Shown piece after piece: positions 499 through 42,191 of a stretch of DNA of 42,191 nt. The notes below the pieces were generated by a model. The model saw nothing but the letters and a program-made list of their open reading frames with translations, was not told the DNA's origin and made no database searches. The stretch comes from Acidobacteriota bacterium (GTDB lineage Bacteria > Acidobacteriota > Terriglobia > Versatilivoradales > Versatilivoraceae): assembly GCA_028875575.1 (NCBI GenBank), contig JAPPDF010000040.1, positions 1-42,191 of the forward strand. Direction: 5' to 3'. A program made the position numbers and the translations under genes. Every line of letters starts with the position of its first letter. Position 1 is the stretch's first letter.

Positions 499-2214
499 TC
501 AGTATTCAATCGGTTGTTCTTCGAAGTGTCGATGGCGTCGGTACTGGATGCGGCAGTCGACCCGCACCAGGGCCAGGCGGCCGGCGATGTCGGGGTCTCG
601 CCTGAGGAGCTTGACCCTCAACCGATTTCGGCCACTCCTGGGGTAGCGGTCGGGGTCGAGATGGAAGTCGTAGGCATAGCCGTAGGGTGTGATGGAATGG
701 GCGCTGGACTGCTGGTCCACCAGCCGGTAGGTCATGTCGACCTTCTCCAGAATGGAATCCGGCAGCTCCTGCTCATTGAGATGGACCTCCACCCTGTCGT
801 AGTTGGGGAGGATCTCCCGAAAGCGGACTCGCAGCACCACGGACTTGACGCGCCCCAATCGGCGCCAGTGCTGCAGGTCGTCGGCCACCCGGAACGACAC
901 CTGGTGGGATTCTCCGGGTTCCAGCTCCTTGGGGAGCTGGATGTCTCTACCGGGCAACCAGCCGGCCGTGGCCTCATCCCGGATGTCTGAGCGCACCAGG
1001 TAGTGCTTGTCGGCCTGGGCCAGAAGCTCGGGGTGCCCCAGCAGGCGCAGCGCTTCATAATCCCGCGTGGTCCAGGGCCAACCGTTGGGAGCCCAGACGT
1101 GGTCGGCGATGGCAAAGCCGTCGGCGCCCTGGCCGTAGGCGTTGGCGGCGGCGGCCCAGATCATGGCCGGGGTGGCGCTGGGCGCGAATTGCCGATAAAG
1201 GTTGGTGTGGAAGGCGTAGTAGATTCGACATGGGGTGCCGCGGGTCAGGGCTATCACCGAGGCCAGGTCGACATCCTGGTCCACCCCTTCTTCCTCAGTG
1301 AAGCTGCTCTCGCAGAAGAGCCCGTCCACCAGTTTCTCCGAGACCCACAAGCCGACCTCGTACCCCACCAGTTTCCAGGCATCGGGATGAGCCGGAATGC
1401 GCAGGTAGATCGGCTTGGGACGTTTCTGCAGGTCCCGGGCCCGGTCGGCCACTTGGCGCAGGTCCCGCAGCCATTGGGTGAGCAGCGGGGCCAGCCGGTC
1501 CACCTCGCTGAACCGGCAATAGGGTAGGGCCGAGGTCAGGTTCAACTCGACGCCGTCGGTCTCGTAATCGGAGAGCATCTCCGACAGGAGACGGAAGCGT
1601 TCCTCCCTTACCTCGGCGTGGAGAAAGCTGAACCGGGACTTGAGCAGGCCGGCAGCCCTGGGGTCGGGGTCCTCCCCCACCTGAAACCGGGGATTGTCCA
1701 GGGTGAAGGCCGACCAGCGTCCCAGGTTTCGGTGGGTTTGCCGGTTGCCGCTGTGAAGGCTGATCCAGGTGCTGGGGATCATGCGGATGCCGTGATGATG
1801 GCAGCGGTCGCAAAGGAGCTTCAGAGGATCGTGACCGTCTGCGATCAACTGACGCAGGACCCGTGCCGTTCTGCCCCAGACATAGTGGTCCCACCGCTCG
1901 ACCGTATCTCCCCACAGGTCGGCCACTTGACTGGGATAGAGAACCGTCCCATGGGCTCCGGCCGCGAACAGCACCAGGGCGTCCACTCCGCTTCCTGCCA
2001 GTTGATCGACGATGGTGCCGTAATCTTGCGGAGTGATCGGTGGCTCGAAGCTGTCCAGTCCTCCGACGTGGCGCCCGTCGTTGAAGAGGAAGACCCGAGG
2101 TGGGGTGTTCGGGTCCCGACGCTCCGGTGGGGTGCCTGAACCGGAGGTCGCCTGGGCAGCCGGACCTGCGGGGATACCGGCCGCCCGCTTTCGCAAAAAC
2201 TTTCTGCGGTTCAT
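499..2214 (-). CDS. Tat-exported TIM-barrel-like protein (glycoside-hydrolase-like), paralog of 37495-39105
   Basis: This is a 571-aa protein. I place the start at the ATG whose product opens MNRRKFLRKRAAG, a twin-arginine export motif. Upstream in-frame residues look non-coding, and there is no good ribosome site. Alternating strand/helix segments with a DGVELN motif near the middle resemble barrel-type glycosidases and related exported sugar-active proteins. The last 150 residues look like a beta-sandwich (RVRFREILPNYDRVEVHLNE). The second barrel protein in this window (37495-39105) shares the Tat motif, the HxEVR...DGVEL core and a similar C-terminal sandwich, so the two are probably paralogs. 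The catalytic residues and substrate are unknown. It is separated by repeats from the DUF1501 gene upstream and may not be co-transcribed with it. Confidence 0.75.
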   Translation of the reverse strand: MNRRKFLRKRAAGIPAGPAAQATSGSGTPPERRDPNTPPRVFLFNDGRHVGGLDSFEPPITPQDYGTIVDQLAGSGVDALVLFAAGAHGTVLYPSQVADLWGDTVERWDHYVWGRTARVLRQLIADGHDPLKLLCDRCHHHGIRMIPSTWISLHSGNRQTHRNLGRWSAFTLDNPRFQVGEDPDPRAAGLLKSRFSFLHAEVREERFRLLSEMLSDYETDGVELNLTSALPYCRFSEVDRLAPLLTQWLRDLRQVADRARDLQKRPKPIYLRIPAHPDAWKLVGYEVGLWVSEKLVDGLFCESSFTEEEGVDQDVDLASVIALTRGTPCRIYYAFHTNLYRQFAPSATPAMIWAAAANAYGQGADGFAIADHVWAPNGWPWTTRDYEALRLLGHPELLAQADKHYLVRSDIRDEATAGWLPGRDIQLPKELEPGESHQVSFRVADDLQHWRRLGRVKSVVLRVRFREILPNYDRVEVHLNEQELPDSILEKVDMTYRLVDQQSSAHSITPYGYAYDFHLDPDRYPRSGRNRLRVKLLRRDPDIAGRLALVRVDCRIQYRRHRHFEEQPIEY

Positions 2215-4194: not shown

Positions 4195-7035
4195 TCAATC
4201 CACGTACATGAAGGCATTGGAGGACAACAGGGCTCTGCAGTAACTCTGCCAGCCCTGGAGCCGGCTGTCGTCCCCCGGCGACCGCTCCTGAAATCCCCGG
4301 ATGTAATCCAGAGCCTGGTCCAGTTCCTCACTCCGGGGGTGTCGATTCAGGGTCTTGAGATGGGCAAGATTCAGCCGCTCCCGGTCACTGGAGTCCGGGT
4401 CCTTCAGTAGAAGCTCGGCCAGCCCGCGGGAGCGCATCTCCACGAATTGGCTGTTGAGCATGAAAAGGGCCTGGGGAGCCACGTTGGTCTGGAGGCGCTC
4501 TCCCGAGGAAGTGGTGGCGTCGCCGAAATCGAACAGGGCGAGCAGCGGGGGCAGATTGGCGCGTCGCAACGGCAGATAGACCGTGCGGAGGCGCTGGGTC
4601 TCCGGATCCATGCTCAACCGCTCGCTGCTGTTCTCCGGCTGGTACCCTGTTCCGCTCTGCAATGTGCCCCCCATCTTCAGGTCGATGGAGTCGTCCAGGG
4701 CCAGCATGCCGTCGCGAATTTCCTCCACCTTCAGTCGCCGCCTGGGGAAATAGGACAGCCAGAGGTTCCTGGGATCGGTTCGAGCCGTCAGCTCCGAGCG
4801 AGCACTCGCCATCTGATAGGCGCGTGACCTCATGATCGATCGGTGAAGGTGTTTCAGGGACCAGCCATTCTCAATAAACTTCCGCGCCAGATAATCCAGC
4901 AGTCGCGGATGGGTGGGTGCTTCCCCCTTGGCTCCGAAGTTGTCGGGCGTCCGCACCAGGCCCTGGCCGAAATGCCAGTGCCAGACCCGGTTGACCATCA
5001 CGCGAGCCGTGAGCGGATGCTCCGGCTGTATGAGCCAGCGGGCGAGTTGCAGGCGACCGCTGCCCTGGCTGACTTCCATGGGAGGGCACCGCGTGTCGAA
5101 CACCCTGGGAGAAACCTTGGGAGCATCCTCGCCCGGATTGGCGGGGTCACCCCGGACGAAAACTTTCTGCTCGACCACCTCTCCGTCTTCCACGGCGTTG
5201 GCCATGTCCGGTTCCGGAGGCGCGGCCTTCTCCAACTGCTCGATCTCCTTCTGGAGCCGTACGATGGCTTCCCTGCGCTCCTCGGAGAAGAGTTGGGTGT
5301 CGCCGGGCTCGAGGATAAAGGGCGTCTGGTAGCTATCGTCCCTCGGATTGCCCTTCAGATAGACTTCGTGGAAGAAGCGGTCCCTGCCCGGAATGAACTT
5401 GGGTCGGTCCTCCTTGGCTTCATCCGGCCCGGCCTTCTCGACCCGTTGCCGCCAGGCTTCCAGTTCCCCGTTCCACTCGTGTAGTTGCTCGCGGAACTTG
5501 TCCTGATAGTCCTTGGCGACCGAGGCGCGCTGGTCCTCCCCGGACCGGCGCCAGGCCAGCAGGTGGGGGCGGAACCCCTGGCCGGGCTTGAGATAGCCGG
5601 CCCAGCGTTCCAGGATCGACTCTTTCAGTTCCAGCTTGCGGGACAGCTCCGCCGGATTGGCTCCCTGGGAGTAGACCTGATGGGCGGCCAGCATGTAGTC
5701 GGCCAGCCGCAGGCTTTCCGCCCCAACGAACCGTTCCTTTTCCTTTTCCACCAGCTTCCCCTGGGCCTGCTTGCGGTCGTCGATTTTCTTCTTGTGATCG
5801 AGATAGGTCTGGTGCTCTTCGGGCAGGACCAGGGGCTTCATGAGCATTTCGGAGACGTGGGCGGTCGGATCGACGAAGCTGCGGGTGCTGGCAAAGACGG
5901 AGATCAGGGAATAGTAGTCCCGGGTCAGGATGGGGTCGAACTTGTGGTCGTGGCAGCGGGCGCAGGTGATGCTCAATCCCAGAACGCTCTTGGAGACCAC
6001 GTCAAGCTGCTCGTCGTAGACGTCGTAGACCATCCGGATCTTGTCCTGCTGGGCAACGGCCTTGGGGCCCAGGGCCAGGAAACCGGTGGCGATGATCCTG
6101 CGCCGGTCGGTAGCCAGGTTGCCCGTCCTGGGAATCAGGTCTCCGGCGATCTGTTCCAGGATGAATTCGTCGTAGGGAAGGTCCCGGTTGAAGACATCGA
6201 TCACGTAGTCCCGGTAACGCCAGGCATGGGGGTACTTGTGGTCCTCGTCGTTGCCTGTGGAGTCGGCGTAGCGGGCCACGTCCAGCCAGTGCCTGCCCCA
6301 GTGCTCTCCGTATCGGGGTGAGTCGAGCAGCCGCCCGATGACCTTGTCGAAGGCGTCGGGGGAAGTGTCGTTCAGGAAACGCTCGATCTCCTGGACGGAA
6401 GGTGGCAGACCGGTAAGGTCGAAAGTGGCTCGCCTCAGCAGGGTCAGCTTGTCCGCCGGAGTAGCCGGTTCCAGCCCCTGCTCCTCCAGCTTGGCCAGAA
6501 TGAAGCGGTCGATGGGCGTCCTTGGCCAGTCCTGGCGGGTTATCGACGGAGGCCCGGGATCGGCCACCGGCTCCAGGGACCAGAGTCCCTTTGGGCTCGC
6601 CGGGGCAGTTCCAGCTTCCTCGCCCGTCCCGGCCGACGGTTCGGGCCAGGGTGCTCCCAACCCGATCCAGGTCTCCAGGGCGGCAATTTCGGCTGGGTCC
6701 AGCTTGCCCGCCGGGGGCATCTTGACGGCGTCCTGGTAGCGGACGGCTTGGAGGAGGCGGCCATGCGAGGGAGTTTCAGCCGAGATCAGAGGGCTCCCCG
6801 CCACCCCTTGGCGGAATCCCTCGGCGGTTGAGAGATCCAGTCCGGCGGTTGCCAGCTCGGAGTTGTGGCATGCCGTACAGTGCCGGACAAACAGAGGCCG
6901 GATCTTTCTCTCGAAAAGTTCCTCCGCTTCCGACCCCTGGCTCCAGGCCGGGGCGGAAAGACCGCAGAGCGCCAGAACCGGCGGGAGCAGAAGCGTTGCC
7001 ACCTGGGAGGGGTGAAACTGTCTCGATCGATGCAT
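4195..7035 (-). CDS. PSD1 and planctomycete cytochrome c domain protein (DUF1549/DUF1553)
   Basis: This 946-aa exported protein has a hydrophobic signal region at residues about 12-30. A PSCyt1 haem-binding domain follows with CTACH at residues 53-57 in the usual FVRHCTACHN context. Next come DUF1549/PSCyt2 (WGRHWLDVARYADSTGND...RDYVIDVFN), a second CxxCH (CARCHDHKFDPI, near residue 358), a charged coiled-coil-like middle, and C-terminal DUF1553 (VNRVWHWHFGQGLVRTPDNFG). Families of this architecture are abundant in Planctomycetota, Verrucomicrobiota and some Acidobacteriota and are thought to serve in polysaccharide or other polymer catabolism; the reaction is unproven. It is the first gene of a two-gene operon with DUF1501. 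There is no clear Shine-Dalgarno before the ATG. A divergent gene starts at 7176. Confidence 0.93.
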   Translation of the reverse strand: MHRSRQFHPSQVATLLLPPVLALCGLSAPAWSQGSEAEELFERKIRPLFVRHCTACHNSELATAGLDLSTAEGFRQGVAGSPLISAETPSHGRLLQAVRYQDAVKMPPAGKLDPAEIAALETWIGLGAPWPEPSAGTGEEAGTAPASPKGLWSLEPVADPGPPSITRQDWPRTPIDRFILAKLEEQGLEPATPADKLTLLRRATFDLTGLPPSVQEIERFLNDTSPDAFDKVIGRLLDSPRYGEHWGRHWLDVARYADSTGNDEDHKYPHAWRYRDYVIDVFNRDLPYDEFILEQIAGDLIPRTGNLATDRRRIIATGFLALGPKAVAQQDKIRMVYDVYDEQLDVVSKSVLGLSITCARCHDHKFDPILTRDYYSLISVFASTRSFVDPTAHVSEMLMKPLVLPEEHQTYLDHKKKIDDRKQAQGKLVEKEKERFVGAESLRLADYMLAAHQVYSQGANPAELSRKLELKESILERWAGYLKPGQGFRPHLLAWRRSGEDQRASVAKDYQDKFREQLHEWNGELEAWRQRVEKAGPDEAKEDRPKFIPGRDRFFHEVYLKGNPRDDSYQTPFILEPGDTQLFSEERREAIVRLQKEIEQLEKAAPPEPDMANAVEDGEVVEQKVFVRGDPANPGEDAPKVSPRVFDTRCPPMEVSQGSGRLQLARWLIQPEHPLTARVMVNRVWHWHFGQGLVRTPDNFGAKGEAPTHPRLLDYLARKFIENGWSLKHLHRSIMRSRAYQMASARSELTARTDPRNLWLSYFPRRRLKVEEIRDGMLALDDSIDLKMGGTLQSGTGYQPENSSERLSMDPETQRLRTVYLPLRRANLPPLLALFDFGDATTSSGERLQTNVAPQALFMLNSQFVEMRSRGLAELLLKDPDSSDRERLNLAHLKTLNRHPRSEELDQALDYIRGFQERSPGDDSRLQGWQSYCRALLSSNAFMYVD

Positions 7036-8662: not shown

Positions 8663-10813
8663 ATGGCCATTAGCGCACTACTCGCCTGTCTTGTGGCGGT
8701 TGCGGCTTCGGTCGCCTGGGTCCCTCTCGCCTGGTCGGAGCCCTCTGGCCGCGGTCTGCCGAAGAGGGGCTACGACCGGTGGAGCGCCTACGGAGGCGGC
8801 AACCGGCAGATCCGCTACTCCCGCCTCGCTCAGATCACCCGCAACAACCTGCACCGGTTGCGGGTCGCCTGGACCTACGATACGGGGGATGCCTTTCCCG
8901 GCTCGGAGATGCAATGCAACCCCCTGGTGGTGGGCGAGCGGCTGTATGCCGCCAGCCCCCGGGGGCGGGTCTTCGCGCTACACGCGGCCACCGGCAGGGA
9001 GATCTGGTCCTTCCGGCCATCCCTCCCAGGCGGGCCTCCCCGCGACAGGGTCCGCATTCGGGGATTGATGTATTGGAGCGGGCACGGCCAGGAGCGGGTC
9101 TACTTCTCCTTCTGGCACCGGTTCTATGCCCTGGACGCGGCCACCGGCAAGCCTTGCCTCGACTTCGGAAATCGGGGAACCATCGACCTGAGGCGCCACC
9201 TGCGGCGGCCGTCCGATTCACTCACCGTCTCGCTGACCACGCCCGGGGTGGTCTACCGGGATCTGCTCATCCTCGGCAGCACGGTGAGTGAGAGCCTGCC
9301 GAGCGCCCCCGGCGACATTCGCGCCTATGACGCCCGCAGCGGCAGGCTCCGCTGGAGTTTCCGAACCGTTCCCGGTCCGGGTGAAGCGGGCCACCGGACC
9401 TGGCCCGGAGAAGCCTGGAAAACCGCCGGCGGAGCCAACAGCTGGGCCGGCATGAGCCTGGACGAGCAGCGCGGACTGGTCTACGTTCCCACCGGCTCGG
9501 CGGCTTTCGACTTTTTCGGCGGGAACCGTCCAGGCCACAACCTCTTTGCCAACTCGTTGCTCTGCCTGAAGGCAGGGTCCGGCGAGCGGGTCTGGCACTT
9601 TCAGGTGGTCAGGCACGACGTGTGGGACCGGGACCTGCCGGCCCCGCCCAGCCTGGTGACCGTGTTCAGGGAGGGCAGGCCGGTTGACGCCGTGGCCCAG
9701 ATCACCAAGTCCGGACACGTCTTCACCTTTGACCGGGAGACCGGCCGCCCCCTGTTCCCCCTCAGGGAAGTCGAGGTTCCGGTCGCGGGTGTCCCGGGCG
9801 AGCGATTGGCCGCCACGCAGGTCCTTCCCGCCAAGCCGCCTCCGTTCGCCCGCCAGCGTCTGACGGAAGACCTGTTGACCGATCGCACTCCGGAAGCGCA
9901 CCGGGAGGTGTTGAAGCGCTTCCGGAGGCTGCGCAGCGGGCCCCAGTTCACGCCTCCCAGCCTTGAGGGGACCGTTCTCTTTCCGGGTTTCGACGGAGGG
10001 GGCCAGTGGGGCGGGGCGGCTTTCGATCCGGAATCGGGACGGTTGTACGTGAATTCCAGCGAGATGGCCTGGATCCTGCGGCTGGTGGAGAGGGAGACAC
10101 CCGCCGGTCCCTTCACCGCCCGGCAGCTCTACCGCTGGAATTGCAGCGGCTGCCACCGGCAGGACCGCAGCGGCTCCCCCCCGGAGTTCCCCCCATTGGT
10201 GGGCCTGGAAGAGCGCCGTTCCGAGGAGACGGTGCGCCGGACCCTGCGCCAAGGCGGGGGCCGCATGCCGGGCTTTGCCCACCTGGGGGACGAGGTGCTG
10301 GAGGCCATCCTGGGGTTTGTGCTCTATGGGAGGGACACATCCGTTCCAGCGGCCCGGGCCGGCAAGCCTCTCTACCATCTGCCCTACGGTCATGACGGCT
10401 ACAACCGCTTCCTGGATCCGGAGGGCTATCCGGCAGTAAAACCGCCCTGGGGAACCCTGAACGCCATCGATCTCGACAAGGGAGAGATCGTCTGGCAGGT
10501 TCCCTTGGGTGAATTTCCGGAACTGGCGGCGAAAGGGATGGCGAGGACCGGATCGGAAAACTACGGCGGTCCCATCGTGACGGCGGGTGGACTGGTGTTT
10601 ATCGGCGCCAGCAACTTCGATCGCAAGTTCCGGGCCTTCGACAAGACCGACGGACGCCTCTTGTGGGAAGCGCTGCTGCCGGCCTCTGGAAACGCAACCC
10701 CGGCCACCTATGAAGTGGCCGGGCGCCAGTTCGTGGTGATCGCGGCCGGGGGCGGCAAGAGCGGCGCCCCATCGGGCGGAAGCTACGTCGCTTTCGCCTT
10801 GCCTGTGGACTAG
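8663..10813 (+). CDS. PQQ-dependent dehydrogenase with inserted cytochrome c domain
   Basis: A periplasmic quinoprotein of the glucose/alcohol dehydrogenase class, 716 aa, with a signal peptide ([19 protein letters not shown]). The beta-propeller is shown by [19 protein letters not shown], the [15 protein letters not shown] start of blade one, [20 protein letters not shown] and [20 protein letters not shown], typical of PQQ glucose-dehydrogenase-like enzymes. A c-type haem module is embedded at about residues 485-560: CSGCH at 494-498 with a later RMPGF methionine as probable sixth ligand. The propeller then resumes ([20 protein letters not shown]) to the end. The fused haem would pass electrons from PQQ straight to the respiratory chain. 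The substrate is unknown. Its stop codon shares CTAG with the converging gene. Confidence 0.93.
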
Positions 10814-33031: not shown

Positions 33032-34168
33032 TCAGGCTGAGGGGGTTGCCTTCCCACCGTCAATCGGACCGGGGGCCGCGACCTGTGTCATCAGGTCCTC
33101 GTTCCATTCGCCTTGCACATTGACGTGGGCCAGTGCACCCAGTTCTACCGCCTCGATCAAGTTGTGGTTCAGGTACGCATAGATGCCCGGCTGGCGGAAA
33201 GTGTAGATGGCCGCACCGGCCGAGCCTCCGCGGATGAACCAGGTTTCCAGCCCATGGGCCGGGGGATCGGAGAAGGCACCCTGTTCCCACACGAAGTCTC
33301 CATGTCCGCCGATCAGGTGCGGTCTGGAGTCCCGGTTGGCCTGGGAGTGGATGAAAAGGACGGTCTCGCCCACGCGCGCCTTCATGGCGCCGTCGCCGGT
33401 CAGTGCGCCGACGCGTCCGTTGAACACGACGTGGGATGGCGTGAGCGTACGCATGGTCTGGAGGGTATCGGCCATGGCCTCGATGGGGCCCTCGAAGGCC
33501 ATGAACTTTCCGTCTGCATCTCGCGGTACGTAAAAGTCCTGCTCGCCGATGTAGTAAGCCTTGTCGTAGCGGATGGGCTTGCCGTTGCCGTCCTTGAGGC
33601 CGGTCCTGGGAAGCACCATGATGGCCCCGTTCATTCCCGAGACCACGTGGTATGGAATCATGGAGCCGCCCGGTGCGCAGTGATAAATGAACGTGCCCGG
33701 CTTGATTGCCTTCCATCGCAATACAACCTGCTCGCCGGGCTGAACGTGTGTCAGGGCGCCGCCGCCGAGAGCCCCGGTGGATGCGTGGAAGTCGATGTTG
33801 TGCGAGAGTTGGCTCTCGGCCGGATTCTTCAGGGTGAGCTCGATGTAGTCTCCCTCGTGACAGACGATCAGGGGCGCCGGAATCGAACCGTTGAAGGTGA
33901 GCGCGTGAATCGCGGTGCCGTCGGCGTCGATGACGCGCTTGGCCTCGTTAACCACAAGCTCGACCTCGACGATCCTGGGGCCTCCCGACGCGACCTGTGT
34001 GTGTTCCGGAACATAAGGTGGATCGACCAACTTCTGCCAGACTCGCGGTAGCCCGCGCGTGTCTGTCGGGACCTCGGTGGAGGCCGTCACCGCCCCCCGG
34101 GTCATGGCCGACATGGCGGCCAATGGGCCACTTGCCTGCAGGAAACGTCTTCTGCTCATTGAAGACAT
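33032..34168 (-). CDS. nirK: Copper-containing nitrite reductase (NirK), Tat-exported
   Basis: NirK reduces nitrite to nitric oxide in the periplasm. The 378-aa product has a twin-arginine signal ([16 protein letters not shown]) and two cupredoxin domains. All ligands are seen: type-1 copper H123, C164, H174, M179; type-2 copper H128, H163, H335; active-site D126 and H289 ([45 protein letters not shown]). The Cys-to-His loop is one residue longer than in the CAPPGMVPWH type, and Tyr replaces the Trp. GAGGAG sits six bases upstream of the ATG. There is no nitric oxide reductase, NO sensor or pseudoazurin gene in the window, so it is an orphan denitrification step. It converges on the TonB receptor. 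Confidence 0.96.
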
Positions 34169-34260: not shown

Positions 34261-35379
34261 TCATTCCGATTCGAAGGGGCGATAGTTCCTAAAGAAGCTG
34301 ACCCAGCGCAGGGAGGTCTTGCCGGTGGTTTGGAAATTGGGGAGTCCGCCGCCCTGGTTGGCCGCGGAGGCGCTCAGCCCACCGTCGCCCGTGGCATCGG
34401 TCTTGACGATGACATGCAGTTCGGCGGGCAGCCAGACCAGCTTGTCCACCAGCATCACTTCCTTGTAGCGGAGCACCAGTTCTTCATCGGTGATGGGGGC
34501 TTTCCGGGGCATGTCGGTGGATTTGGACTCCAGCCGGACCAGCAACTGGTTGTCCAGATCCACCCAGAAACGCCCGCGATAGCCAAAGGGCACCATCCCC
34601 TCATCCTTGACTTCTACGGGCCGCAGGGAGTATTCCCGGGGAATCCGAAAGGACACTTTTGCCGTGTTTCGTCCATGCTTTTTCTCCAGGCCCTGGAACT
34701 TGAAAGTCGCCCGGGACTGAGGTGTGAAGATTGCGGTCAATACGGGCCCGAATTCCCCCACGTCGCGGAAAAGAGGATACTGGCTGACCTGTTTGTAATG
34801 GGGTGACTGGTCGAAGTAGCTCACCTCGACCTCATAGATTCCCCTCTGGGTCCAGCCTCTCCGGCCAAATGCCTGGTAGGACCGGGTGCCTTGGTTGCAG
34901 ACAAAATCCGGTAAGGAGTGGACGTATCTCAGCACCCTGTTTCTGACCGACTCCAGGAATCGCGGCCAGTTCTCGACCGTGGGCACGGTCCCAAGCGGCA
35001 GGAGATTCACATTGGGGGGCGGCGGAGGCGATTTCTCCGTGCCTTTGGGTTCAGCGGGGAGGATGCCGGGAGCTGCGGCCGGCTGGACGGTGGTCGTCCG
35101 TTTCCCTCCCAGCTCTTTTAGGACATTTACAATGGCCGCGTCGGCCTCCTGGGCTTCCAACTGCTTCAGAAAGGCGTCGGTGACCGTGAACCCGATCCCT
35201 CGTTCGCGAATCATCCCCACCGCCCGCTCGACGGTGATTCCGAACTTGGAAGCGGTCGCGATGGTGGTGACCTGTTCGGCCGTCAGAGGTGGTTTGGCTT
35301 CGGCGGTCCCGGCCAAGCCCGCCGAGAGCGTGAGAGTGAGCAGAACCAAAAGCCCAATCCTGAGGGGTGGATGAGTCAT
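34261..35379 (-). CDS. Exported hypothetical protein, acidobacterial-type (LPDFVCNQ motif)
   Basis: A 372-aa protein with a signal peptide (RIGLLVLLTLTLSAGLAGTAEA), a helical domain at about residues 32-92 (LTAEQVTTIATASKFGITVERAVGMI) and a proline-rich linker (EKSPPPPPNVN). The C-terminal domain opens with LRYVHSLPDFVCNQGTRSYQ and is rich in beta strands (FKFQGLEKKHGRNTAKVSFRI, GYRGRFWVDLDNQLLVRLES). Proteins with a 'LPDF-C-Q' opening and a similar beta domain are common hypothetical proteins of Acidobacteriota; function is unknown. The lipoprotein-like or outer-membrane-attached look of the beta domain is only an impression. GGGA lies about ten bases before the ATG. It shares a divergent region with comM. 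Confidence 0.82.
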   Translation of the reverse strand: MTHPPLRIGLLVLLTLTLSAGLAGTAEAKPPLTAEQVTTIATASKFGITVERAVGMIRERGIGFTVTDAFLKQLEAQEADAAIVNVLKELGGKRTTTVQPAAAPGILPAEPKGTEKSPPPPPNVNLLPLGTVPTVENWPRFLESVRNRVLRYVHSLPDFVCNQGTRSYQAFGRRGWTQRGIYEVEVSYFDQSPHYKQVSQYPLFRDVGEFGPVLTAIFTPQSRATFKFQGLEKKHGRNTAKVSFRIPREYSLRPVEVKDEGMVPFGYRGRFWVDLDNQLLVRLESKSTDMPRKAPITDEELVLRYKEVMLVDKLVWLPAELHVIVKTDATGDGGLSASAANQGGGLPNFQTTGKTSLRWVSFFRNYRPFESE

Positions 35380-35736
35380 GGTTGTGTCGTTCCCATTACG
35401 AGATTTGGTTCCCAAGTATAGCATTGAACAGGCGGCCCTTCCCCCATTATAGGGCAGCCTCTGGCATCGAGCCAGCGCGCAGCCTGACAACAGGACGACT
35501 ACCCTGTTTCACGGGGCCGTTGCCTGGGCTCGGTTCATCACCTATAATTCCCAAGTTCAGCGGACGGCCGCCGGCTGGGTACCGATCCGTTGACCCTCCC
35601 TCCTTCCGATCTCCCTCACAATTAAGGTCGGGCCGCAGTCTTCCCGCGCACCCAGCGCCATGGTGCCGGATTGCGTATGGCTGCGTCCCCGCGCCGGCGG
35701 GCGGCCCGCTGTCGCCGGCGATCGCCGGAGGTGAGG
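35380..35736. other. Divergent intergenic region
   Basis: These 357 bp lie between the exported hypothetical protein and comM. On the minus strand there are TATAAT (35451-35446) and TATACT (35420-35415) as possible -10 elements, without good -35 partners. The plus-strand promoter is listed separately. No small gene is recognised. Confidence 0.5.
35520..35548 (+). promoter_or_regulatory. Sigma-70-like promoter upstream of comM
   Basis: TTGCCT (35520-35525), a 17-bp spacer and a perfect TATAAT (35543-35548) form the best-looking promoter in the window. It would leave an untranslated leader of about 180 nt before the comM ATG. An unrecognised small gene or leader structure in that stretch cannot be ruled out. 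Confidence 0.5.
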
Positions 35737-37293
35737 ATGCTGTTTAAAACGCTGAGTGCAGCTGTTTTCGGGATCGATGCCTACGTGGTCGAGGTAGAGG
35801 TGGATGTTTCCCCCGGAAAGGCCAACTTCCTGACAGTAGGGCTGCCGGATGCGGCAGTCAAGGAGAGCAAGGAGCGGATCCGCTCGGCCGTCAAGAACTG
35901 CGGAATGGACTTTCCCTTCAGGAACATTACCGTGAACCTGGCTCCGGCCGGCATCAGGAAGGAGGGCTCGGCGTTCGATCTTCCCATGGCCATGGGCATT
36001 CTGGGAACGGTGGGAACGCTGCAGAGACAGGACCTCGGCGACTGGTTGTTTCTGGGGGAACTCTCCCTGGACGGAGGATTGCGTCCGGTCCGCGGGGCTC
36101 TGCCCATTGCCGTGGCCGCCCGGCAGAAGGGGATTCACCACCTGGTCCTGCCAGCGGAGAACGCCCGGGAAGCCGCGGTGGTCGCCGGCCTGTCGGTCTT
36201 CGGTCTGAAGAATCTGGTAGAAGTGGTGGATCTGGTCAACGGCGCCCGGGAGTTTCAGCCGAACGAGGTGGATCCCCGGCGTCTATTGGCCGCACAGCCC
36301 CGATCCCCGCTGGACTACCGGGACGTCAAGGGGCAGCTCACGGCCAAGCGGGCTCTGGAGGTGGCGACCGCCGGCGGGCACAACCTGATCATGATCGGTC
36401 CTCCCGGATCCGGAAAGACCATGCTGGCCAAGCGCATCCCCACCATCCTTCCGCCGCTTACTTTCGCAGAGGCGATTGAAACCACCAAGATCCACTCCGT
36501 CGGCGGCGTCCTCGCAAACGGCGCCGGGCTGATCAACCGGCGACCCTTTCGGGCTCCTCACCACACCATTTCCGATGCCGGGTTGATTGGCGGGGGAGCG
36601 CTGCCGAAACCGGGGGAGGTCAGCCTGGCCCACCACGGTGTCCTGTTCTTGGATGAGCTTCCCGAGTATGCCCGCAATGTCCTGGAGGTGTTGCGCCAGC
36701 CGCTGGAGGACGGCGAAGTGACTATCGCAAGGGCCGCCCTTTCGCTGACCTTTCCGTCGCGCTTCACCCTGGTGGGAGCCATGAATCCCTGTCCCTGTGG
36801 CTTCTACAACGATCCGGGCCGAGCCTGCTCCTGCACTCCGAGTCTCATCCAGCGCTACGTGGCCCGGATCTCGGGGCCTCTGCTGGACCGGATCGACATT
36901 CACATCGATGTCCCGCCGGTAGCCTACGCCGAGCTGTCGGCGAGGACCAGCGGGGAGCCCTCGCAGGACATTCGGGGACGAGTCACCCGCACCCGGGAAA
37001 TTCAACAGCAGCGCTTCGCCGAAGCCGGGATCTACTCCAACGCCCAGATGACGCCTCGCCTGATTCGTCGTTTCTGTGATATTGGAGTGGAGGCGCAGCG
37101 GCATTTGGAGCGGGCCATGACCCGAATGGGCTTCAGCGCCCGCGCCTACGATCGGATCCTCAAGGTGGCTCGCACCGTTGCCGATCTGGATCAGGCGGAG
37201 GTCATACGGCCCCACCACATCTCGGAGGCCATTCAGTACCGCAATCTGGACCGGAATTACTGGATGGGAACGTCACCGGCGGAGCAGGTTTAG
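35737..37293 (+). CDS. comM: YifB/ComM-family AAA+ Mg-chelatase-like ATPase
   Basis: ComM is a hexameric helicase for branch migration during recombination of incoming DNA. This 518-aa protein has the N-terminal Lon-S5-like domain ([38 protein letters not shown], of which the first half is diagnostic), Walker [15 protein letters not shown], Walker [12 protein letters not shown], the conserved [11 protein letters not shown] loop, the cysteine-rich [17 protein letters not shown] segment and the C-terminal Mg_chelatase_C helical domain ending RNLDRNYWM. The ATG at 35737 has GGAGG five bases upstream; the longer in-frame extension is arginine-rich and unlike the family. No other competence genes are near. 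Repeat A copy 3 overlaps the stop codon and could act as a terminator. Confidence 0.96.
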
Positions 37294-37494: not shown

Positions 37495-39105
37495 TCAACC
37501 CGGGTATGTGAGAGCCAGGTGAACCTCCTCCAGCGTCAACCCGGCCGGGCAGTTGGGCTGGACCCGGACGGTCAACTCATTGGTGCCCTGATGGATCCGG
37601 CCGGGGGGCAGTTTCCAATCCATCCAGGCTGTGCCGCCGGAACCTGGCCGTCGAATGCCGTCAGCCGCGGCAAGCCGAACCCCGTTGATCTCAAAGGCGG
37701 CCTGATCCGGCCGAAGCGGCCTCGACCAGCCAATGCGCAATTCCGTCTCCGGGCGCGAGCTGCCGCCGCCACTCTCCTTCAAGTCGTCCCCGACAGGAAT
37801 GGGGATCCGCTTCTCTTGTGAGCCCGAGGCAGTCGAGAACGTCACCGGCAGCGGTGCCCGAGGGCAGATGTGGGCGATGTAGCCGGCTTCCTGGGTGCGG
37901 TCGACGGTGTAGAGCTTGTCCAGGCGGGACAGTACCGCGGCCTCTCCCGTTTCCTCGGCGATCTGCTGCTGGTGGGGGTCGTGGACCTCGGGAGTTCCTC
38001 TGCCGCCGCGAATGCCGGACATCACGAAGAGATTGAACCAGTAGAGGCCGTCGGCCCCCGCCGACCAGAAGCGCTGGGCTGCGGCCCGAGCCGCTCGAAT
38101 ATCCTGGAAAGCCCGGGTGGAGCCGCTCAGGCAGGGATAGACCGGGATGCCCGCCCTATGGCCCAGGTCTATCCAGGTCTCGACCGGAGTGGTGAAGGGG
38201 ACATAGCCGGCGCCGGCAACCAGCAGGTCCACCAGGCCTTCCTGGATCCATGAGGCGGCGTCCACCCCGTTGTTCAGGGAGAGTTCGGGCGTGTCGGCCA
38301 CGCGCATGGCCAGTTGGATGGTCTTGCCCTTCTGCCTCGAAATGTCCCGCAGGCGGCGGCGCACCGTTCGCACGAAGTCGGTCAAGAGCGGGACGTGTTG
38401 TCTCTCCGTTCCCGGTTTGAAGAAGAAGGGGTGGCGGCACCAGTCCAGCTCCACGCCGTCCAGGTCGTAGCGCTGGCAGGCTTCTTCGATCGCTTGCAGG
38501 TACCGTTGGCGCACCTCGGGATGGGCGTAGTCCACCGCACACCAACTGAACCACTCGGAGGAACGGACGCCGAAGGCTTCCCGGGTCGACCTCAGGGGAT
38601 GTTCGCCCTCCTTTCGATTCCAGCGCAGGAAGGGCTGAAAGGAGTCCGAATCGGAAATGCTTGCCAGCAGAAACTGAGGATGTCGACGCTTGAAATGGTT
38701 GAGCCGTCCCGGGATGAACGCGTCGTGGATGTCGTTCATGCGGAAGGAGAAGACGCACTCCATGCCGTGCCGCCGGGCGAAGTCCACGGTGACCCGGATG
38801 GGATCGTTTTCCGGCCCCATGGGATAGGTGGTTTCCCAGTGGCGCCTGGTTACGTATCCGCAGTAGTAGATGCTGTCCACGTGGGTGCCCGGCAGGGTCT
38901 TCATCCGTCGCGCCAGAAATCCCTCGGGGGTGGTGGCCAGGGGGGAGTAGCTGTCGTCGCCGTCATTGTTGTAGATCAGCCGGGGCCGCTTGCCGCTGCC
39001 GCCGGAGCCCTGGGCCGGGGCGGCGCGGGACGGGTTGAGGCCCTGGGCGCCTGCCAGGCTCAGGGAGGTGGCCGAGGTTCTGAGAAATTCTCTTCTGGTT
39101 TGCAC
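37495..39105 (-). CDS. Tat-exported TIM-barrel-like protein (GH10-like), paralog of 499-2214
   Basis: A 536-aa protein starting at GTG with GAGGAGG five bases upstream. The product opens MQTRREFLRTSATSLSLAGA, a twin-arginine signal. The barrel region contains DSIYYCGYVTRRHWETTYPMG, GMECVFSFRMNDIHDAFI, ERYLQAIEEACQRYDLDGVELDW-type segments (actual text RQRYLQAIEEACQRYDLDGV then ELDW) and LFVMSGIRGG. A short beta-sandwich closes the protein (FEINGVRLAA...NELTVRVQPN). The DGVEL(D/N) strand end is where many glycosidases keep an acid, but function is unproven. It is the last gene of a minus-strand operon with an SSS transporter and Gfo/Idh oxidoreductase. Confidence 0.82.
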   Translation of the reverse strand: MQTRREFLRTSATSLSLAGAQGLNPSRAAPAQGSGGSGKRPRLIYNNDGDDSYSPLATTPEGFLARRMKTLPGTHVDSIYYCGYVTRRHWETTYPMGPENDPIRVTVDFARRHGMECVFSFRMNDIHDAFIPGRLNHFKRRHPQFLLASISDSDSFQPFLRWNRKEGEHPLRSTREAFGVRSSEWFSWCAVDYAHPEVRQRYLQAIEEACQRYDLDGVELDWCRHPFFFKPGTERQHVPLLTDFVRTVRRRLRDISRQKGKTIQLAMRVADTPELSLNNGVDAASWIQEGLVDLLVAGAGYVPFTTPVETWIDLGHRAGIPVYPCLSGSTRAFQDIRAARAAAQRFWSAGADGLYWFNLFVMSGIRGGRGTPEVHDPHQQQIAEETGEAAVLSRLDKLYTVDRTQEAGYIAHICPRAPLPVTFSTASGSQEKRIPIPVGDDLKESGGGSSRPETELRIGWSRPLRPDQAAFEINGVRLAAADGIRRPGSGGTAWMDWKLPPGRIHQGTNELTVRVQPNCPAGLTLEEVHLALTYPG

Positions 39106-39149: not shown

Positions 39150-40676
39150 TCAAGGTTCCTGCAATCCGGGCACTTCCGCAGCCGTCTTGCGGCGCCACAG
39201 GGTGTATTCCCGGTCGGCTGGCGGGAGGCGCCTTAGCTTGGCATAAATCAGGCTGAAAGGGTAGGAGACTGCCAGGCAGATGACCATCGCGAGGGCCCCG
39301 TAAAATATCCAGTGGGTGTCCGAATAGTTCTGGATGTAAACCTGCGAGGGAATGCTGACCAGGCAGGTGGCGATCAGCCAACCGCCGAAATTTCCCCTGC
39401 GGGTCAGAATTCCCATGAGGAACAGGGCGGTGACGGGCGAGGCCACGTAGCCGCCAACCATGCTGATCGCCTTGAGGATTCCCTCGATCTGTGAGACCAG
39501 CAGGCCGGAAGCGGTGGCCAGCAGCCCCAGACCGACCGTCAGTCCGCGGGCGATCTGGAGACTGCGGCGGGAATCCAGGGCGCGCTTTCTCAATGGCTGG
39601 ATGAAGTCCACCAGGATCAGGGTGCTCATGGAGTGAATGCCGGAGTCGACGGTGGACATGGCGGCGGCAAAGACGGCGGCGATGATCAGGCCTGAAATGC
39701 CTGCCGGCAGGGCATGGATGATGTAAAACGGGAGGATCTTGTCGCCGCCGATCCCTTCGGCCAGACGTTCCGGAAACAGGGAGAAGTAAGCGAAGAGTCC
39801 CAACCCGATAAAAAAGAGAAGCGCCAGAAGAATGATTTCCAAGACGTGATCCAGAATCTGCGCCTTGACCATTCCTCCAAACGTCTTGATCGAGAGCAAC
39901 CGCTGGACAGGCACCTGGCTGGTGCCGTACTGGCCGAAGGCGATGATGAAATAGCAGATCACCACCGTCAGGCCGTTTATTTCCGAGAAGCTGAAGGTCA
40001 GATCCAGCAGCGGCAGCTTGTCGTTGGCGGAAGCCATTTCCATGATCCGGTCCATCCCCCCGGGCACGCGCTCCACCAGGGAAAGGGTGATCAGGACGGC
40101 CCCGAAGGTCAGAACCAGAAATTGCACCACGTCGGTCCAGATCACTGCAGCCATCCCGCCCAGGGTGGTGTAGGCGGTGGCCACCAGGCCCATGACAATG
40201 ATCGCGCTCCAGAGGTCGAGGCCGGTGACCGTGGAAAGCGCCAGGGCCGGCGCATAGAGGGCAATGCCCATCCAGCCCAGCAGTTGCAGAATCGAGAAGA
40301 AGGAAGCGGCGTAGCGGGATCGGCTCCCGAAGCGCAGGCCCACGTATTCGTAGATGCTGGTGACCCGGAGCCTGCGGTAGATGGGGAAAAACAGCAGAAT
40401 GACCAGCGGCGCGGCCAGCAGGGTAGCCGGCAGCCCCACAACCAGAGCGGCATTCTCCTCGTAGGCCACCTGCGGTGCGCCCAGGTAGGTGATGGCACTC
40501 AGAACGCTGGCGACCACGCTGAGGCCGACCGCCAGCCAGGGCATGCGCCGGTTGGCCAGGAAGTAGGTCCCGGTGTCTTTCTGCTTGCCGGATAGACCCA
40601 GGGCCAGACCGACCACCACCGCGAAGTAACCCAACAGGACCAAGGTGTTTAGAGTTCCGAAGGATGGTGCTTCCAG
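39150..40676 (-). CDS. Sodium:solute symporter (SSS family)
   Basis: An inner-membrane sodium-coupled transporter. Hydrophobic segments cover almost the full length (about 13 predicted by eye). Family motifs include LANRRMPWLAVGLSVVASVLSA, the ITYLGAPQVAYEENAA start of helix two, SIYEYVGLRFG, YTTLGGMAAVIWTDVVQF and AAVFAAAMSTVDSGIHSMST (Na+ site region). The start is uncertain: TTG at 40643 gives 497 aa, but in-frame upstream codons encode a typical first-helix lead (EAPSFGTLNTLVLLGYF) and begin at a CTG (40676) with GAGGGG eight bases upstream. I list the longer form. The substrate could be a sugar, sialic acid or other organic anion; the adjacent exported barrel protein and Gfo/Idh oxidoreductase suggest a sugar or sugar acid. 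Confidence 0.92.
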   Translation of the reverse strand: MEAPSFGTLNTLVLLGYFAVVVGLALGLSGKQKDTGTYFLANRRMPWLAVGLSVVASVLSAITYLGAPQVAYEENAALVVGLPATLLAAPLVILLFFPIYRRLRVTSIYEYVGLRFGSRSRYAASFFSILQLLGWMGIALYAPALALSTVTGLDLWSAIIVMGLVATAYTTLGGMAAVIWTDVVQFLVLTFGAVLITLSLVERVPGGMDRIMEMASANDKLPLLDLTFSFSEINGLTVVICYFIIAFGQYGTSQVPVQRLLSIKTFGGMVKAQILDHVLEIILLALLFFIGLGLFAYFSLFPERLAEGIGGDKILPFYIIHALPAGISGLIIAAVFAAAMSTVDSGIHSMSTLILVDFIQPLRKRALDSRRSLQIARGLTVGLGLLATASGLLVSQIEGILKAISMVGGYVASPVTALFLMGILTRRGNFGGWLIATCLVSIPSQVYIQNYSDTHWIFYGALAMVICLAVSYPFSLIYAKLRRLPPADREYTLWRRKTAAEVPGLQEP

Positions 40677-40755: not shown

Positions 40756-41991
40756 TCAGCTTGACTTCCCGGCGGCTTCTTCGGCCGACTGGGGGCGATT
40801 GGTAACGTCTCCGCCCAGCCAGCGGTAGGGTCTGGGGTAGAGGGCCAGGGATCGGTCTTCCAGGGGCAGTTTGACCGGGCGATTGCCCCGCTGGGCCGAC
40901 AGCTTGCAGGCGATGGCGATCTCGAGGGCCTGCCGCAGGTCGTGGCCCGAGATGAACAGCTCCCGTCCCTTGTCCACGGCATCCAGGAAGGAGCGAATGG
41001 CCGTGACCAGGTAGTCGTCCCCGTACCAGGGGGCTTGTTCCGTTCCGGGAATGGTCCCCTTGGTCTGTTTGACGTAGTCCAGCCAGAGGTTGGGAGCATA
41101 TTGGGGGTCCACCTCCTGGCGGGCGCCCTTGCTATCGGTCCCCTTATAGACCTGGGGCTCGTTCCAGTTCCAGCGGACCAGGGCGTCGTCGGTCCAGGCC
41201 TCCACGCCGCTGTAGGGAGTCTTTTGGCCGAATACCGTAGCCTCCAGTCCGGAATCCAGGTAGAAGAGGCCGTTGATGATCAGCCCGGCGTCGTCTTTCT
41301 CCGGAGCCAGCGCTTCCAGGGGGCTGCCCCAGGCAATCAACTCCTGTACTTCCGCTCCGGCAAAAAGCCTCAGGACCGAGAGATGCTGGCAGCCTCCGCC
41401 CGAGATCTCGCCACCGAAACTGTGGATCGCAGCTCCCTGAAGAGTGCCCCATCTGCCTCCGTTCAACTGGCGGCCGGCCTCCTGGACGTTCCACTTGGCC
41501 CGCTGCAGGTTGCCGCCGGCAAAAACCACCCCCCGCTGCTTGCAGGCGTCCACCATGGCGTCGGCGTCCGACAACCGGGCCGCGATGGGTTTGTCGGTGG
41601 AAACCCCTTTGACCCCAGCCTCGGCGCAGGCGATGACCGCATCCTTCATGAACTTGGTGGGAGTGATGACGGCGGCGACGTCAGGCACCACCTCCTTCAG
41701 CATGGCGGGCGCATCCTTGTAGAGCGCCTTGACTCCGAAACGCTCGCCGACCACCTTTCGCCGCTCCGGGTTCCACTCGGCGATGGCCACCAGCTCGGCG
41801 TCGGGCATGGCGCGGTAGACTTCCGCATAGTACTGGCCCATTCGCCCGCAACCGATAATGGCCACCCGGTGTTTCTCCTTGCGGCCGGCGGCTTGGCTGG
41901 GGCCTGTCAGCCCTTGGGAGGCCGTGCATCGCAGTCCGGTGGCCGCCAGCGTCAGCGCGGCCGATTGCAGCAAGAAGTGTCTTCTTTCCAT
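40756..41991 (-). CDS. Tat-exported Gfo/Idh/MocA-family oxidoreductase
   Basis: A 411-aa protein opening MERRHFLLQSAALTLAATGL, a twin-arginine signal; export by Tat would carry a bound nicotinamide cofactor with it. The Rossmann domain follows (HRVAIIGCGRMGQYYAEVYR), then STDKPIAARLSDADAMVDAC in which the catalytic lysine is kept (DKP). A C-terminal beta domain ends in a PYRWLGGDVTN segment. The ATG at 41991 has GAGGGGAG upstream. It is the first gene of the operon with the symporter (80 bp downstream). Exported members of this family are common in Planctomycetota and Acidobacteriota, and some are glycosidases with an NAD-dependent mechanism. The substrate is unknown. Confidence 0.92.
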   Translation of the reverse strand: MERRHFLLQSAALTLAATGLRCTASQGLTGPSQAAGRKEKHRVAIIGCGRMGQYYAEVYRAMPDAELVAIAEWNPERRKVVGERFGVKALYKDAPAMLKEVVPDVAAVITPTKFMKDAVIACAEAGVKGVSTDKPIAARLSDADAMVDACKQRGVVFAGGNLQRAKWNVQEAGRQLNGGRWGTLQGAAIHSFGGEISGGGCQHLSVLRLFAGAEVQELIAWGSPLEALAPEKDDAGLIINGLFYLDSGLEATVFGQKTPYSGVEAWTDDALVRWNWNEPQVYKGTDSKGARQEVDPQYAPNLWLDYVKQTKGTIPGTEQAPWYGDDYLVTAIRSFLDAVDKGRELFISGHDLRQALEIAIACKLSAQRGNRPVKLPLEDRSLALYPRPYRWLGGDVTNRPQSAEEAAGKSS

Positions 41992-42191
41992 GGGTTTTCT
42001 CCCCTCGGGTTGTTGCCGGCAGGTCGGTACTGCAGTCCGCATTTCTCACCAGGCCGCTGGTGGCATGACGAAAGGTAGTTTATCTTTCAGTTCCTTGATT
42101 GGCTCCATGGTAAGGGCTTGCAGGTAACAGACGGCGCTGGGCATGCCCTGGCTTGTCCTTTTCCCTTCAGCGCGCACATGCTCCCTCGACC

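Follow-up and report, generated by a model that had tools for sequence, protein, structure and literature searches.

Family GH156 was founded on EnvSia156, an inverting exosialidase of known structure (PDB 6rzd, 6s00, and 6s04) (PMC6254351, PMC6811678). As described for this enzyme, Asp14 serves as the general base and His134 as the acid, the carboxylate is held by Arg129, Arg202, and Asn346, and Arg246 is a conserved, buried arginine (PMC6811678). His134 is paired with Asp132 (PMC11574756). The glycerol-chain and +1 hydrophobic contacts of EnvSia156 are described as in part less conserved (PMC6811678), and they do not strictly define the family. Activity has been reported for two GH156 proteins, EnvSia156/ORF12p and OIO94155, and homologs of EnvSia156 were already noted in Planctomycetes, Lentisphaerae, and Acidobacteria (PMC6254351); GH156 is also described in Planctomycetota (PMC11929135).

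The window analyzed here, a stretch of 42,191 nucleotides from the Acidobacteriota contig JAPPDF010000040.1, encodes two proteins, P0001 and P0002 (table). An earlier note had described these as paralogs that begin with a twin-arginine motif, have DGVEL(D/N) at the core, and end in a beta domain while sitting in different operons, and each of these points was confirmed in the reading frames and models. The two proteins are homologous (BLASTP E=6e-8; 23% identity, with 48 identities over 210 aligned positions). Their core motifs read YDLDGVELDW (P0001) and YETDGVELNL (P0002), and C-terminal β-strands are found within residues 430–533 and 436–558 of the respective models. By Pfam and NCBIfam assignments, the gene orders are Gfo/Idh > SSF > P0001 and PSD1 > DUF1501 > P0002. 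A plus-strand reading of both genes was ruled out by stops in frame 1. P0001 starts with GTG at 39105, behind GAGGAGG, and in three orthologs (L038, L040, and L041) the equivalent residue is encoded by ATG. The N-terminal motif is TRREFL in P0001 and NRRKFL in P0002, with the hydrophobic stretch of the latter being weak; the RRxF motif occurs in both proteins and in 29 of 42 paralogs, and a looser pattern in 37 of the 42. Both proteins are probably exported. The twin-arginine motif is what would suggest that they fold before export, as had also been proposed.

Features of the window, with positions in the 42,191-nucleotide stretch
Feature	Position	Strand	Basis
P0002 (571 aa, twin-arginine start): GH156-fold paralog, most of the active-site set replaced, DGRH motif	499..2214	minus	
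D46-G-R48-H49 codons of P0002 (base Asp and the clade's own Arg-His)	2068..2079	minus	computed from gene start
DUF1501 protein, directly upstream of P0002	2693..4198	minus	
PSCyt1-PSCyt2-PSD1 protein, sharing 4 bases with the start of the DUF1501 gene	4195..7035	minus	
PQQ-type dehydrogenase	8663..10813	plus	
Copper-containing nitrite reductase	33032..34168	minus	
409-aa frame	34261..35490	minus	
ComM-like Mg-chelatase-family ATPase	35671..37293	plus	
P0001 (536 aa, twin-arginine start): probable GH156-type exo-glycosidase, complete GH156 active-site set	37495..39105	minus	
Asn358 codon (Asn346 of EnvSia156, carboxylate clamp)	38032..38034	minus	
Arg268 codon (Arg246 of EnvSia156, conserved, buried)	38302..38304	minus	
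Arg224 codon (Arg202 of EnvSia156, carboxylate clamp)	38434..38436	minus	
R122-M-N124-D125-I-H127 codons (Arg129, Asn131, Asp132, and His134 of EnvSia156)	38725..38742	minus	
Asp48 codon (general base Asp14 of EnvSia156)	38962..38964	minus	computed from gene start
GAGGAGG, likely ribosome-binding site of P0001	39111..39117	minus	read from sequence
P0005: sodium:solute symporter (SSF), SiaT relative lacking SiaT's Arg135 and Gln82	39150..40643	minus	
P0004: Gfo/Idh/MocA oxidoreductase, twin-arginine start (ERRHFL)	40756..42042	minus	

P0001 and P0002 belong to the sequence family of EnvSia156 and share its full-length fold. Among solved structures, EnvSia156 was the sole match below 1e-3 for either protein (E=1.6e-27 for P0001 and 6.9e-6 for P0002). 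Profiles built from each group gave stronger matches: that of the P0001 group (16 sequences) aligned with EnvSia156 at E=4.1e-68 (profile positions 45–499 of 516 on chain residues 11–491), and that of the P0002 group (15 sequences) at E=5.8e-34 (chain residues 99–407). AlphaFold2 models were obtained with pLDDT of 78.8 (P0001) and 74.2 (P0002). Rather than differing in fold, both models have EnvSia156 as their best match by Foldseek (E=1.4e-33 and 6e-31, respectively) and by VIA-align. The latter gave Z of 33.2 for P0001 (427 residues aligned, 2.6 Å, model residues 40–534), which has the barrel and C-terminal beta domain of EnvSia156. For P0002, Z was 34.7 (468 residues aligned, 2.8 Å); the alignment behind this model holds P0001-type relatives and lacks the closest relatives of P0002, so that this fold evidence is not independent of the former, whereas the P0002 profile search is. 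The next fold family among the matches listed was Clostridioides difficile Cwp19 (PDB 5oq2 and 5oq3), which resembles both models in the barrel only; its Z scores are lower (26.6 for P0001 and 27.9 for P0002), about 300 residues are aligned, and the C-terminal domain is left uncovered.

Other family assignments were considered and rejected. Pfam matches of P0001 to Glyco_hydro_18, GHL10, and GHL6 were below the gathering cut-offs (19.1 against 29.6, 23 against 27.9, and 11.8 against 35 bits, respectively), as was that of P0002 to GHL6 (19.3 against 35 bits). NCBIfam had no match for P0001 and a single sub-threshold one, to a formate-region Tat model, for P0002; PHROGs had no match for either.

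In a 117-row alignment, from which one 249-aa fragment had been dropped beforehand, P0001 matches all seven key positions of EnvSia156 as well as Asp132. Within the R122–H127 stretch, the alignment identifies R122 as the carboxylate arginine, N124 as the asparagine, D125 as the aspartate partner, and H127 as the acid histidine. The full signature, D-R-N-H-R-R-N, is present in 60 of the 117 rows, EnvSia156 included, and none of the 59 full-signature relatives lacks Asp132. P0001 thus has the base aspartate, the acid histidine with its aspartate partner, the carboxylate clamp, and the buried arginine, and is a new member of the known GH156 family. It differs from EnvSia156 in its added twin-arginine start and in lacking most side-chain contacts to Neu5Ac and the +1 site. 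In place of N15, S16, Y135, F203, F278, and W279 of EnvSia156, P0001 has G, D, D, H, G, and Y, each of these changes being common to 35–53 of the 59 canonical relatives, and Y20, C53, and W164 have no aligned partner.

With this homology, fold, and set of residues, P0001 is rather likely to be exported and to act there as an exo-hydrolase that removes a terminal ulosonic sugar with inversion. Arg122, Arg224, and Asn358 would bind the carboxylate of such a terminal alpha-keto-acid sugar, Asp48 would activate a water molecule, and His127, held by Asp125, would protonate the leaving glycan. Release of the sugar would invert its configuration and take place outside the cytoplasm. That the substrate is sialic acid is less certain, because most of the side-chain contacts of EnvSia156 to Neu5Ac are changed; as the aglycone contacts are mostly changed as well, P0001 may naturally act either on sialic acid or on a related sugar such as Kdn or a Kdo-like one. 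Also counting against this explanation of P0001 are its identity of 25.4% to EnvSia156, the position of EnvSia156 in a tree of the family, where its nearest row is L051:2405-4144 (a Planctomycetaceae record) and not P0001, and the Nan searches, in which NanE was not found and NanA matches stayed under the cut-off.

The last of these bears on the operon of P0001, in which gaps of 112 and 44 bp separate the called frames of the Gfo/Idh, SSF, and P0001 genes. The same order occurs in five of six orthologous loci, the sixth (L036) ending at a contig end inside the SSF gene; the P0001 orthologs at these loci are 87–97% identical. Upstream of the three-gene unit lie hydantoinase B and M24 peptidase genes in L039 and a phage-integrase gene in L040, and as these differ, the shared core consists of three genes. 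Such a unit could be dedicated to sialic acid scavenging, with P0001 freeing Neu5Ac, the symporter importing it, and the oxidoreductase handling an oxidized or anhydro form. The constancy of the unit and the full GH156 set of P0001 are consistent with this, as is the relationship of the symporter P0005 to SiaT (PDB 5nv9), its best solved relative (E=7e-65), from which it keeps Ser60 and Thr63. However, Arg135, Gln82, and Thr58 of SiaT are Trp124, Leu71, and Val in P0005, and the substitutions Arg135Glu and Gln82Asp are described as abolishing transport by SiaT (PMC5931594). P0005 is therefore not SiaT by its binding site, and as a proof of sialic acid transport it was ruled out, since Arg135 is not kept. 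In addition, NanE (PF04131) had no match in the genome that contains the window (0 matches, with 8 of 14 control genomes positive), and the 14 matches to NanA in this genome were all under the cut-off (at best 165.3 bits, against 382). Lastly, the oxidoreductase has a twin-arginine start and so would not meet an imported sugar. Taken with these points, a dedicated scavenging unit appears improbable, and we retain the reading of P0001 as an exo-hydrolase of a terminal ulosonic sugar.

P0002 has the scaffold of EnvSia156 but lacks its acid histidine and carboxylate clamp. The signature is D-W-S-S-S-R-D in P0002, as against D-R-N-H-R-R-N, such that only the equivalents of Asp14 and Arg246 are kept. 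Among 21 P0002-type rows, which were picked by signature and in which loss of Arg129 is therefore by choice, D46, H49, H110, R166, and E223 are each present in 21 of 21 and R48 in 20 of 21. Some of these rows are only 27% identical to P0002. Going by its own set of conserved residues on the same scaffold, the P0002 clade appears to be a new variant on the GH156 fold, and P0002 is probably a neofunctionalized enzyme. Because the base aspartate is kept while the clamp and acid histidine are lost and a D-x-R-H motif is the clade's own, the pocket appears rebuilt, and P0002 most likely acts on a different sugar than P0001.

P0002 might instead be a pseudoenzyme, that is, a non-catalytic carbohydrate-binding protein, as might the other members that lack the signature. 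In favor of this, 20 of the 42 members in the genome, P0002 among them, lack most of the signature. We consider this unlikely, as the strict conservation of polar residues across the 21 rows looks catalytic and orthologs of P0002 in three other genomes are 89–91% identical. On the favored reading of P0002 as an enzyme, the earlier suggestion of a cofactor-carrying hydrolase family for different glycans holds in part. Both proteins have a GH barrel with a beta domain and are probably exported, and different substrates are probable because their active sites differ; the cofactor found no support, GH156 catalysis as described using Asp, His, and water (PMC6811678). The likelier cofactor carrier in the P0001 operon would be the Gfo/Idh neighbor.

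The synteny PSD1 > DUF1501 > P0002 is kept in both other genomes looked at (G010 and G008). Across the genome, 50 matches to PSD1 (DUF1553) were found, compared with matches in none of the 14 control genomes. Neighbor counts were compared with 2000 random placements, for which neighboring hits were merged (Gfo/Idh from 21 to 20, SSF from 32 to 30, and BNR_2 from 41 to 32), loci were placed independently, and contigs of unknown length were given one lumped length. Neither PSD1 (7 of 50 within 5 kb, 4.03 expected, 212 placements as high) nor the symporters (3 of 30 within 5 kb, 2.48 expected, 920 placements as high) were enriched, and both were rejected as family-wide partners. Gfo/Idh loci were enriched near family genes, with 7 of 20 at a distance of 5 kb or less (1.54 expected, 0 placements as high). 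These counts are clustered: the seven loci lie on five contigs, three of them around one gene on contig C95, so that independence is not given and the placement test makes the case look stronger than it is.

These counts raise the possibility that the family works with exported Gfo/Idh enzymes, through extracytoplasmic oxidation of a sugar before or after cleavage by the GH156-fold protein. Each of the two paralogs nearest to P0004 (71% and 60%) lies next to a family gene, and the same holds in G010. Moreover, among the 25 families listed first in each of two Pfam tallies, Gfo/Idh was the commonest for 66 neighbors of the other classes (4 members) and, together with short-chain dehydrogenase models, joint commonest for 42 neighbors of P0002-type genes (3 each). 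These tallies share three proteins and come from a heuristic pick of genes that covered 41 family frames and missed L016 and L021; no dominant Pfam partner was present among the first 25 families of either. The enrichment is, however, weaker at 1.5 kb (3 of 20, 0.84 expected, 90 of 2000 placements), and most family genes have no Gfo/Idh neighbor. A general partnership with Gfo/Idh is accordingly doubtful, and we favor for both proteins a reading as exported glycosidases.

Two further classes of genes were examined in the same way. GH33-like BNR_2 genes were found near family genes in 4 of 32 cases at 5 kb (2.56 expected, 500 of 2000) and in 7 of 32 at 7.5 kb (3.27 expected, 75 of 2000). For NanA/DHDPS-family aldolases the values were 3 of 14 at 5 kb (1.07 expected, 184 of 2000) and 4 of 14 at 7.5 kb (1.45 expected, 100 of 2000), a proximity that is suggestive and too weak to use.

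The two paralogs do not by themselves define a family, as the earlier note had it, as this family is already known as GH156 and has some 40 further copies in the same genome. In its 4.49 Mb (101 contigs), there are 46 matches to P0001 and 43 to P0002, where one gene may give several matches, and 42 distinct family genes were read, excluding one fragment at a contig end (C95:57618-58292). Twelve of these 42 have the full signature, four differ at one other position, six have the acid histidine replaced, and 20 have lost more. In the six-member clade, the histidine is replaced by aspartate alone in five and by threonine, with further changes, in one. These six, on contigs C33, C49, C62, C73, and C94 (two), keep Arg129, Arg202, Arg246, and Asn346 and constitute natural variants of the GH156 acid. 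Three long and very divergent members (C81:36971-39175, C90:9229-11073, and C2:11279-13099; frames of 606–734 aa) branch far off, two of them directly adjoining a canonical or near-canonical member.

Copy number is stable in the genus, with 39–49 matches in each of seven genomes, this one included; five other genomes of the taxonomic family have 0, 1, 3, 30, and 40 matches. Of 199 genomes drawn from the phylum, again including this one, four had the family at 1e-10; as at most seven candidates were scored per genome, the match numbers are minimum values and weak members may have gone undetected. Of the other three positives, one had just one weak match, and two, both from one other genus, had at least 7 and at least 11 matches.

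A tree was built from 110 of the 117 rows, leaving out those under 400 aa; it is a quick tree, its branches are long, and there were warnings that long ones had been joined. P0001 belongs to a starred set made up of 43 canonical and two near-canonical rows (45 in total), its nearest row being the ortholog in L036, and P0002 belongs to a set of 26 rows (support 93) that lack the signature. For 30 of 41 rows from the genome, the nearest neighbor is a row from G010, in all cases within 0.25 changes per column; G010 is a genome of the same genus in one contig, of which 30 loci were compared. Most of the expansion therefore predates the divergence of these two genomes. The closest G010 copy of P0002 is 91% identical and lies outside the 30 loci compared.

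The nearest named records are Acidobacteriota MAGs, namely Ca. Versatilivorator vitaminiformans, RHO1_bin_34, SB0661_bin_38, a Terriglobia chromosome, and two others. We take these, from isolate names, to be probably sponge symbionts, and RHO in RHO1_bin_34 to stand perhaps for Rhopaloeides odorabile. The name Ca. Versatilivorator vitaminiformans occurs in no paper found by a word search of the open-licence literature. R. odorabile is a sponge sampled in a study that reports glycoside hydrolases, among them GH33, to be enriched in sponge MAGs, lists Acidobacteriota as one of the lineages, and describes sialic-acid-linked residues in the sponge mesohyl (PMC8163846). That study proposes that GH33-type sialidases of symbionts serve the use of sialic acid in sponges, and GH33-like BNR_2 domains are likewise abundant in the genome studied here (41 matches on many contigs, most above the cut-off). 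Unlike the GH156 fold, the GH33 type is described as a retaining β-propeller (PMC6811678), and Pfam and solved-structure searches found no sequence relation of it to P0001 or P0002. The main text of the sponge study does not contain the word GH156 (PMC8163846). Among titles and abstract openings of the open-licence literature, no paper was found on an expansion of GH156 in sponge symbionts, nor on GH156-fold proteins without the acid histidine and carboxylate clamp. GH156 sialidases of the gut are reportedly the topic of a later paper.

The expansion to about 42 genes would most plausibly serve to trim varied host or environmental glycans. As an overall reading, which we advance only tentatively, the genus, probably sponge-dwelling, may possess a long-standing arsenal of some 42 exported enzymes with the GH156 fold. 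The P0002 clade would be a new glycosidase family within it, in which the base aspartate is kept and the histidine acid and carboxylate clamp are swapped for a pocket of D-x-R-H, H110, R166, and E223. Working in part with exported Gfo/Idh enzymes, the scaffold would thereby serve both acidic and neutral (or oxidized) terminal sugars. GH156 becomes a second candidate sialidase family, beside GH33, for probable sponge symbionts, and the 12 full-signature, six acid-histidine-replaced, and 20 changed-pocket members offer a test series for the change of substrate in an inverting Asp/His sialidase.

Several other genes were noted in the window. The copper-containing nitrite reductase gene matches TIGR02376 with 481.5 bits (cut-off 296.3), and the 409-aa frame beside it has no Pfam match at 1e-5. 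The gene for the ComM-like ATPase converges on P0001. Lastly, the PQQ-type dehydrogenase has a cytochrome domain.
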